From IMG/VR virus record IMGVR_UViG_3300046836_000221, positions 1 to 32,499 of that record: a stretch of 32,499 nucleotides of DNA. One strand, 5' to 3'. Source of the DNA: a virus. Position 1 is the stretch's first letter. Each line of letters begins with the position of its first letter. The notes beneath the pieces are model-generated. The model was not told the origin of the DNA and made no database searches. It saw only the letters and a list, made by a program, of their open reading frames with translations. Made by a program: the position numbers and the translations under genes. Shown one piece after another: positions 30,509-32,249 of this stretch.

Positions 30509-30687
30509 TGCCGGGCGATGTTAAAGAGGCGCGCGAGGTCGCCGAGGAGATGATCCGATCCTGGAAGTATTGGGACGTAAGTGCCCGCGACGCCTCGGTT
30601 GCGCTCGGGTACACGACGCATCGGCGGGGGTGGGAGCGGGTGCGCAAGGCGCTGGTGCGCTGGTGGAGGGAACACGGTGAGCCTTGA
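30505..30687 (+). CDS. Small phage protein, 60 aa, possible DNA-binding
   Basis: ATGATG start overlapping the previous stop. Charged helical protein with the segment DVSARDASVALGYTTHRRGWERVRKALVRWWREHG, whose LGYTTHRRGWERVRKAL part could be a helix-turn-helix followed by a basic helix. The -35 box of the first tandem promoter (TTGAGA, 30684-30689) overlaps its stop codon, so this gene ends exactly where a new regulatory module begins. Confidence 0.6.
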   Translation: MMPGDVKEAREVAEEMIRSWKYWDVSARDASVALGYTTHRRGWERVRKALVRWWREHGEP

Positions 30688-30712
30688 GATCGCCGACCGC
30701 ATCCCATATAAT
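30684..30712 (+). promoter_or_regulatory. Promoter P1 (near-consensus sigma70)
   Basis: TTGAGA at 30684-30689, exactly 17 bp, TATAAT at 30707-30712. The -10 is perfect, and the -35 matches 5 of 6. Expected start near 30719. The -10 region lies inside a 23-nt direct repeat shared with P2. Confidence 0.7.
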
Positions 30713-30721
30713 CGCCGACGA
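30699..30721 (+). repeat. 23-nt direct repeat, copy 1 (promoter core)
   Basis: Contains CCCATATAATCGCC, i.e. the -10 box and probable transcription start of P1. Identical copy at 30815-30837, offset 116 nt. Confidence 0.85.
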
Positions 30722-30725
30722 AATA

Positions 30726-30787
30726 AACCCCGGAGAGGGGTTGCGAAATCTCAGCGACCCTCAGGAATCCGTCCTGAGCGCAACCCC
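30726..30787 (+). promoter_or_regulatory. Mutually exclusive hairpins (attenuator-like RNA element)
   Basis: GGGGTTGCG (30737-30745) can pair with AACCCC just upstream (30726-30731, loop GGAGA) or with CGCAACCCC downstream (30779-30787), but not both. The downstream option is extended by CTCAGGA/TCCTGAG (30760-30766 and 30772-30778), stacked on the same 3' strand. Alternatives of this kind are typical of attenuators or structured small RNAs. It starts about 7 nt after the predicted P1 start. Confidence 0.5.
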
Positions 30788-30799
30788 GTCCGAGGTTCC

Positions 30800-30828
30800 T
30801 TGAACAACAATCAAGCATCCCATATAAT
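30800..30828 (+). promoter_or_regulatory. Promoter P2 (near-consensus sigma70)
   Basis: TTGAAC at 30800-30805, 17-bp spacer, TATAAT at 30823-30828. Same -10 and spacing as P1, 116 bp downstream, with the -10 in the second copy of the 23-nt repeat. Expected start near 30835. Confidence 0.7.
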
Positions 30829-30837
30829 CGCCGACGA
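30815..30837 (+). repeat. 23-nt direct repeat, copy 2 (promoter core)
   Basis: Identical to 30699-30721. Contains the -10 box and the probable transcription start of P2. Confidence 0.85.
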
Positions 30838-30930
30838 GCGCGGGCCCGCCACGGAGTCATGACCGAGGCGTAAACCCGTCCACAGCCGACCAGCAGCCCG
30901 GCCTTTGGGTCGGTCCGCGCTCGTTTCTCT
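30835..30930 (+). ncRNA. Candidate small RNA, about 96 nt, ends paired
   Basis: The predicted 5' end from P2 begins CGAGCGCGG (30835-30843), which is perfectly complementary to CCGCGCTCG at 30915-30923, followed at once by TTTCTCTC (30924-30931). This gives a closed RNA with a terminator-like tail. Inside, CCGACC (about 30886-30891) pairs with GGTCGG (about 30908-30913), and CGG-AGTCATGA-CCG forms a short hairpin (about 30852-30865), suggesting a three-way junction. It is not recognised as 4.5S, tmRNA or tRNA. The U-tract is interrupted by C, so termination is uncertain. There is no credible gene in the 267-bp interval 30688-30954. Confidence 0.45.
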
Positions 30931-30954
30931 CCCGGCTGCCAAGGCTGCTGTGCA

Positions 30955-31479
30955 ATGGACGATTGTCTACGCAAGATAGCGAATATCGCTAATGATTTCG
31001 CGGCGCTCTCTCGTGACACATTCATGTCGGACCTCGATACCATCTGCAATATGGAAGGCAGCCCGATAGAGATTTTGTTTGGTGCTGCATTAATCTTTGC
31101 CTTAAAGGAACAGATACCAGAATTTTCATTTGAGTTTATGGAAGATGCGAGCGATCTTATAGATGGAAAAGAATATTATTCTAATTTTGTATTAAGCCAA
31201 AAGAAGATAGGAGCATATACGGTTGATTTTTATCTGTTTGCCAAGACCGCATGTAGTGGACCACTACGGATCGTCATAGAATGTGACGGGCACGATTTCC
31301 ACGAAAGAACCAAACAACAGGCGGCGCATGATAGGCGCAAGGATCGCTGGCTACAATCTCAGGGGTTTATCGTCATGCGATACACCGGATCGGAGATATG
31401 GGCCGATGCTGTAGGATGCGCTCGGCAGGTAGCCAAGCTGGCAAGCGATCGTATCTTTTCCCTGGTCGCCGCGCAATGA
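30955..31479 (+). CDS. DUF559/Vsr-like PD-(D/E)XK endonuclease-type protein, 174 aa
   Basis: Residues 36-50 (SPIEILFGAALIFAL) and 85-150 (GAYTVDFYLFAK...LRIVIECDGHDFHERTKQQAAHDRRKDRWLQSQGFIVMRYTGSEIW) follow the DUF559/very-short-patch-repair-like nuclease pattern, with E39, D91, E109-x-D111 and H113 as candidate active-site residues. The N-terminal two thirds (31020-31240) is clearly AT-richer than the rest of the window, suggesting recent transfer. It begins about 25 nt after the structured RNA interval. Possible roles: mobility, anti-host attack, or defence against other phages. Confidence 0.75.
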   Translation: MDDCLRKIANIANDFAALSRDTFMSDLDTICNMEGSPIEILFGAALIFALKEQIPEFSFEFMEDASDLIDGKEYYSNFVLSQKKIGAYTVDFYLFAKTACSGPLRIVIECDGHDFHERTKQQAAHDRRKDRWLQSQGFIVMRYTGSEIWADAVGCARQVAKLASDRIFSLVAAQ

Positions 31480-32249
31480 CCCGCATCTGTCTCCCCGAGA
31501 GAGCATTCAATGACCGGCGCATCCGCGGGACACATCTGCGATTGCTGGCCGCCATCGCGGCGCTTGGTGAGGGTGTGCTGTCACTTCGGCAGATGAGTGG
31601 TCAGAGTGGCATCAGCGATCGTGACCTGCGGAGACAACTTCGCGAGCTTGAGGATTTCGGCTACCTTGTTACCACACCAAACCCGGGCTCTGAATCATCA
31701 TATGTTATAGATTTCAATGACATTGATGGGGGGGAAGAAAACTCCCCCCAGGGTGAGAAAAAACACACACCGTCGGTTCCCCCCTTGCATGTCCCCCTCC
31801 CTTCCCCCTCTGGACTCCTCCTTCTCTCCCCCCTTAATCCCCCCTCCCTCCCGCCAGAAAAGCGCGCGCGCGCGACAAGGCTCGCCGATGATTGGCGACC
31901 GAGCTCTGCGAGCATCCTTTACGCCGAAAGCAAGGGTTTTTCCGGCGATGATCTCGATAGACAGATTGAGGATTTTCGCGATTATTGGCAGCCGAAATCG
32001 GGACAGAACGCCACTAAACTCGACTGGTCGAAAACATGGGCGACCTGGATTAGGAAAGCGGCCGATTGGCGCGGTCGACAGCAAATCAACGGCCATGCCG
32101 CTAAGGCTCCGAACGGCTTAATGAACTACGACGAGCCTTGGCCGCAACGGGTCCGCAGCTGGAAGCGCGATGGGGTGTGGATGTTCGATCAGTGGGGGCC
32201 GCGGCCAGGCGAGCCTGGCTGTCGTGCGCCACCGGAGTTGGTGGCTTGA
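31476..32249 (+). CDS. O-like replication initiator (winged HTH plus DnaT-like C-terminal domain), 257 aa
   Basis: ATG 31476 overlaps the nuclease stop as ATGA. Residues 1-85 are a winged-helix domain (RGTHLRLLAAIAALGEGVLSLRQMSGQSGISDRDLRRQLRELEDFGYLVT). Residues about 85-140 are a low-complexity Pro/Ser/Lys linker. Residues 140-195 (RLADDWRPSSASILYAESKGFSGDDLDRQIEDFRDYWQ...LDWSKTWATWIRKA) fit the DnaT-like/replication-protein C-terminal domain that recruits helicase loaders. As in lambda O, the linker DNA looks like the origin itself. It should start theta or sigma replication on its own gene. Confidence 0.75.
   Translation: MTRICLPERAFNDRRIRGTHLRLLAAIAALGEGVLSLRQMSGQSGISDRDLRRQLRELEDFGYLVTTPNPGSESSYVIDFNDIDGGEENSPQGEKKHTPSVPPLHVPLPSPSGLLLLSPLNPPSLPPEKRARATRLADDWRPSSASILYAESKGFSGDDLDRQIEDFRDYWQPKSGQNATKLDWSKTWATWIRKAADWRGRQQINGHAAKAPNGLMNYDEPWPQRVRSWKRDGVWMFDQWGPRPGEPGCRAPPELVA
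31690..31874 (+). other. Putative replication origin inside the O-like gene
   Basis: Order of elements: an AT-rich block (31691-31727), a G7/C6 inverted repeat (31728-31734 with 31744-31749), a roughly 80-nt almost pure pyrimidine tract (31777-31855) and an alternating (GC)6G run (31862-31874). It encodes only the linker of the initiator. By analogy with lambdoid phages, where the origin lies in the O linker, this is the best origin candidate. No clean iterons were found by eye. Confidence 0.45.

Follow-up and report, generated by a model that had tools for sequence, protein, structure and literature searches.

Some translational riboswitches, e.g. SAM-II, form a pseudoknot where the ribosome would bind ahead of the downstream gene. 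In the case of ColIb-P9 repZ, a pseudoknot, blocked by an antisense RNA, is needed for translation. Phage pseudoknot leader RNAs controlling replication genes are nearly unknown outside T4 gene 32, the leader of which was described in 2010 as possibly the sole viral pseudoknot in translational autoregulation (PMC3014915); there the pseudoknot lies 67 nt upstream of the start codon and is bound by gp32. A folded nascent RNA of another kind is HK022 put: putL is located just downstream of PL and comprises two stem-loops of ~70 nt (PMC9378689), which act on RNA polymerase without any pairing to a ribosome-binding site.

Here we describe an element in 32,499 nt of viral DNA (IMG/VR record IMGVR_UViG_3300046836_000221), this whole stretch being termed the window below. 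It resembles the T4 gene 32 mRNA leader in being a phage pseudoknot leader that would control the translation of a replication protein, but the partner of its loop lies within the ribosome-binding region and the genes that follow vary. Like HK022 put (PMC9378689), it would be a folded nascent RNA just past an early-type phage promoter, whatever genes follow; however, the fold is a three-way junction with a pseudoknot. It differs from ColIb-P9 repZ in its two rival copies of the loop complement, the downstream one of which is in the position of the ribosome-binding site, in the three-way junction, in the phage setting and in the non-homologous genes; further, a consensus scan, which sees sigma-70-like sites only, finds no antisense promoter, i.e. 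none on the minus strand near 30.7-31.1 kb. In contrast to riboswitches of the SAM-II type, it has no Rfam match, no conserved ligand pocket and two alternative partners. Two rival partners for one loop are found in none of ColIb-P9 repZ, T4 gene 32 and HK022 put as described in the sources.

Distribution of the element

Part of the promoter, used as an exact pattern against IMG/VR, recovered 10 contigs, and the two arms of the stem as a pattern added further ones, with chance matches discarded; a covariance model built from five relatives picks up all other members as well as the window. Together these comprise 15 distinct relatives in 18 contigs (L002-L011, L093, L094, L095, L098, L100, L103, L105 and L107, where L011 is a duplicate of L006, L008 of L007 and L010 of L009), and the alignments contain the window and one row for each of the 15. 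Every member comes from a contig in the IMG/VR virus collection. A search of the whole window against Rfam 15 returned no family at the gathering score, and at permissive E-values the leader regions of the window, L105 and L095 gave chance-level matches or none. No similar DNA was found in annotated phages and plasmids, the stem pattern had no true member among the matches listed for cellular genomes, and in the family of G001, where 398 genomes were searched, its one match is due to chance. Loci fetched via homologous replication proteins yielded no further copies, bar a second window on L004. Related replication proteins, of about 28-45% identity, are found on a Caenibius plasmid and in phages of Roseobacter, Rhizobium and Caulobacter; the element is absent both from the Caenibius plasmid, which has a related helicase, and from the DnaB locus of a Caulobacter phage. 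There are weak hints in the sequences that the host might belong to the Alphaproteobacteria.

Table 1. Features of the leader and its surroundings in the window
Feature	Position	Strand	Remarks
Upstream promoter: TTGAGA, 17 nt, TATAAT	30684-30712	+	same as leader promoter of relatives
Leader promoter P2: TTGAAC, 17 nt, TATAAT	30800-30828	+	sigma-70-like promoter scan
P1 5' arm CGAGCGCGGGCC	30835-30846	+	pairs with GGTCCGCGCTCG; sequence-invariant in relatives
P2 hairpin CGCCACGG / AGTCATGA / CCGAGGCG	30847-30870	+	predicted fold; helix covaries
P3	30874-30910	+	outer ACCCG 30874-30878 with TGGGT 30906-30910; inner GCCG 30885-30888 with CGGC 30899-30902
P3 loop CAGCAGCC, pseudoknot strand	30891-30898	+	C-rich; complementary to both copies
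P1 3' arm GGTCCGCGCTCG	30912-30923	+	pairs with CGAGCGCGGGCC
Linker TTTCTCTCCC, P1 to copy 1	30924-30933	+	pyrimidine-rich in several relatives; no U tract in most
Copy 1 of loop complement, GGCTGC	30934-30939	+	6 bp with loop
Copy 2 of loop complement, GGCTGCTG	30943-30950	+	8 bp with loop; ends 4 nt before ATG
First gene after leader: DUF559/MTES_1575-type endonuclease	30955-31479	+	
Next gene: DnaT-like replication initiator (phrog_1408/3992)	31398-32249	+	

A three-way junction at the predicted transcription start

The TATAAT of promoter P2 ends 6 nt ahead of C30835, which places the expected +1 at about 30835, the first base of helix P1. This phasing is shared by the relatives: the -10 element sits 6-7 nt ahead of GAGCGCGG, and a promoter that sets +1 at the start of P1 is present in all 15 distinct relatives. 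Thus, the claim of an earlier note, made from the letters of the window, that the RNA has its own promoter and pairs its ends from the predicted +1 is borne out.

Comparison of the sequences strongly supports a three-way junction for the RNA from about 30835, made up of P1, the P2 hairpin and the P3 hairpin. The 97-nt stretch has a predicted minimum free energy of -44.9 kcal/mol (z -2.9), with an equally good fold in 1 of 200 shuffles. P1 comprises 12 bp including one G-U and is invariant in sequence, except for a change from G-C to G-U in one row group and for the outermost pair in two rows; consequently, it offers no covariation evidence of its own. Scans in which either half of P1 was relaxed, with TATAAT still required, returned no new members, so that the invariance is not only an effect of the search pattern. 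The earlier note had proposed a 9-bp helix between these ends: its arms are placed correctly and its length is too short. The end pairing is real, yet it is merely the base of a larger element.

Among the helices of the junction, the evidence from covariation is clearest for P2. On a hand alignment used for counting, which is padded with N and fitted to the structure, 10 of its 11 pairs changed on both sides, 93% of cells are paired, none of 500 shuffles was as good, and a shift by one column lowers pairing to less than 47%; on the model-fitted alignment the corresponding count is 9 of 10 pairs. A sequence-only MAFFT alignment misplaced P2 and P3 and revealed only P1 and P3b. The support for P3 is weaker, with outer pairs that vary among A-U, G-C and G-U and 72% of cells pairing, while P3b (GCC/GGC) is almost invariant. 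The inner helix proposed previously, CCGACC/GGTCGG (30886-30891/30908-30913), can be drawn in the window; however, it takes two bases of P1, most relatives do not preserve it, and it was rejected in favor of the conserved inner helices ACCCG/TGGGT and GCCG/CGGC. Beyond the helices there is next to no sequence conservation, and the P1-to-P1 lengths of the relatives vary by steps not divisible by three, indicating that the stretch is not coding. The earlier note had proposed covariation in homologues as a check: the helices change with compensation and, with no match in Rfam, its suggestion of an undescribed structured phage RNA stands.

A loop with two alternative downstream partners

The P3 loop is complementary to two sites that lie in tandem after P1 and ahead of the start codon. 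The loop strand of other members reads CTTCAGCCC, TGTCCCC, TGACCCC, CCTCCCC or CGGTCCCC, with both copies altered to match, i.e. the loop has evolved in concert with both of its tandem partners. The loop pairs with copy 1 in 92% of cells (covariation 0.689 versus 0.150 shuffled; 0 of 500 shuffles) and with copy 2 in 94.6% (0.805 versus 0.181; 0 of 500), figures to be read in the light of the rows being related and falling into six loop classes, such that the cells counted far outnumber the independent changes and the shuffle counts overstate independence. At several central columns, 16 of 16 rows pair with copy 1 and likewise with copy 2, and each such column shows two or three types of pair. 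When loop and tail come from the same member, two sites are present in 12 of 12 cases; when they are swapped between loop classes, this holds for 13 of 100 pairs, and 7 bp is reached in 2 of 100; a control with dinucleotide-shuffled tails is weak for single members (P 0.0075-0.30). L003 and L095 have unlike loops despite 87% identity of their initiators over 124 aa, both tail copies again being altered to match. That the loop motif does not track the initiator speaks for RNA pairing within the molecule rather than for repeats bound by a protein.

Copy 2 occupies the usual Shine-Dalgarno place, its end being 3-7 nt from the start codon (11 nt in L105), and most members have AAGG or a better match there; in the commonest loop class the Shine-Dalgarno-like sequence is weak, with AAGG only. 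In the window this AAGG (30941-30944) lies at the 5' edge of copy 2. By predicted duplex energy, the pairings of the loop to copy 1 and to copy 2 are at most ~4.3 kcal/mol apart, and the stronger of the two pairings differs by lineage, neither being always ahead. The start codon follows P1 by 29-40 nt in all rows.

Gene context

In all 15 distinct relatives the gene next after the leader belongs to the replication region. These downstream genes are unrelated to each other and encode HTH_36 initiators, DUF1376 proteins, a small ORF before DnaB, AAA_25 helicases, a T5orf172 nuclease and a small protein before Prim-Pol. Thus, one element heads several unrelated first genes, and one and the same motif class precedes HTH, DUF1376, nuclease and helicase genes alike. 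Among the members found, it is only in the window and in the relative closest to it (L006/L011) that a DUF559/MTES_1575-type endonuclease separates the leader from the initiator. Elsewhere an unrelated gene of the replication region comes first, and the earlier suggestion of an RNA aimed at this nuclease or at host RNAs is not supported.

In 1-22883 of the window, 8 of 10 large ORFs tested lack a PHROG match, and the main recognisable structural gene of that part encodes a 720-aa protein with a lytic-transglycosylase-like part. Two further proteins encoded there, of 480 aa and 570 aa, had no tblastn match in 50,697 phage records. The window has no tRNA, and a predicted phage tRNA-Ser(act) is present at L003:6872-6948.

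Mechanistic interpretation

Judged by sequence and covariation, the element combines conserved helices, a loop with two conserved rival partners, a fixed spacing, a promoter at +1 and a position at the head of a replication operon. With both covarying helices and a covarying loop pairing to the ribosome-binding region of the next gene present, we consider it probable that the element is a structured 5' leader of the replication-region mRNA, which controls the translation of the first gene in cis. Transcription would begin at P1 and the RNA would fold into the P1/P2/P3 three-way junction. The lengths of the junction strands, near zero between P1 and P2, suggest that P1 stacks on P2 and that P3 folds back along P1, which would bring the loop near the 3' tail. 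There it could pair with one or the other copy upstream of the start codon. A duplex with copy 2 is predicted to hide the ribosome-binding region and hence to be the off state; a duplex with copy 1, the earlier of the two to be transcribed, would leave that region free and constitute the on state. We infer that control of translation lies in an alternation between these pairings, the balance of which might be set by a putative factor, possibly one that reads the invariant P1.

More tentatively, these leaders could represent an undescribed class of phage RNA, namely a transplantable, gene-independent bistable switch, in which the loop chooses either the ribosome-binding region or a decoy upstream of it, the whole being placed at the head of unrelated replication modules. 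If such a switch is true, mosaic phages would hold the control of replication constant while exchanging the replication genes themselves. The two rival pairings constitute a direct prediction, open to simple reporter mutants.

The irrelevance of the next gene could also be accounted for by a cis-acting antitermination or RNA-polymerase-modifying leader comparable to HK022 put, where the RNA folded at +1 lets the polymerase pass downstream terminators. A place right at the +1 of an early-type promoter, with unrelated operons behind it, and a P1 sequence as invariant as though one partner reads it, would fit; yet neither two copies near the start codon that covary with the loop nor a spacing fixed at 29-40 nt would be needed for such a leader, and a three-way junction with a pseudoknot is unlike the put fold, for which reasons we regard this as unlikely. 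Somewhat less likely still is a riboswitch-like element in which binding of a ligand or protein sets the state of the pseudoknot: a three-way junction with a loop-to-ribosome-binding-site pseudoknot does recall translational riboswitches and the invariant P1 could be a binding site, but the near lack of sequence conservation outside the helices is unlike a typical ligand pocket, and no candidate ligand presents itself.

The discrete ~96-nt trans-acting RNA favored by the earlier note, with transcription ending past P1 at a U-rich stretch, appears improbable to us. The element is end-paired, GC-rich and has its own promoter, and there are leaders predicted also to give rise to a small RNA by termination, e.g. 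that of the metZ SAM-II riboswitch (PMC9373788). TTTCTCTC (30924-30931) directly follows P1 on its 3' side, as that note had it. However, a terminator scan calls no plus-strand terminator-like site after P1, the linker is not U-rich in most relatives, and the conserved pairing extends beyond the proposed end of the RNA, into the ribosome-binding region of the next gene. To an element acting at the DNA level, in which a phage protein binds the inverted arms of P1 and the motif in its one inverted and two direct copies, be it as operator or as iterons, we assign the lowest probability of all. It would draw on the invariance of the P1 arms, the repeated motif and the adjoining replication genes; but P2, which is not a repeated motif, covaries with G-U pairs, the motif does not track the initiator in L003 and L095 and is of one class before genes of four unlike kinds, and the 5' leader position and the +1 phasing are left unexplained. 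Replication iterons in particular were rejected, as the repeat should then follow the DNA-binding domain of the initiator, and here initiators of 87% identity over 124 aa have different motifs and the same motif accompanies unrelated genes.

Further copies of the promoter

The upstream promoter of the window shares a 23-nt exact repeat with promoter P2 (30699-30721/30815-30837). Within 30684-30816, it is predicted to drive a different, strongly folded stretch (z -5.1) with the pairings GGGGTTGCG/CGCAACCCC and CTCAGGA/TCCTGAG, which is flanked by the two copies of the repeat and is lacking in the near relative L006/L012. An extra copy of the leader promoter, aimed at a phage tRNA-Asn(GTT), is also found at L004:12769-12884 (promoter on the minus strand) and at L008:6921-7037. 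The tRNA-Asn(GTT) sequences of these two phages are not the same. In both, the extra copy, with its +1 near the 3' end of the tRNA, would transcribe straight into the exact antisense of the tRNA gene and produce a putative antisense tRNA.
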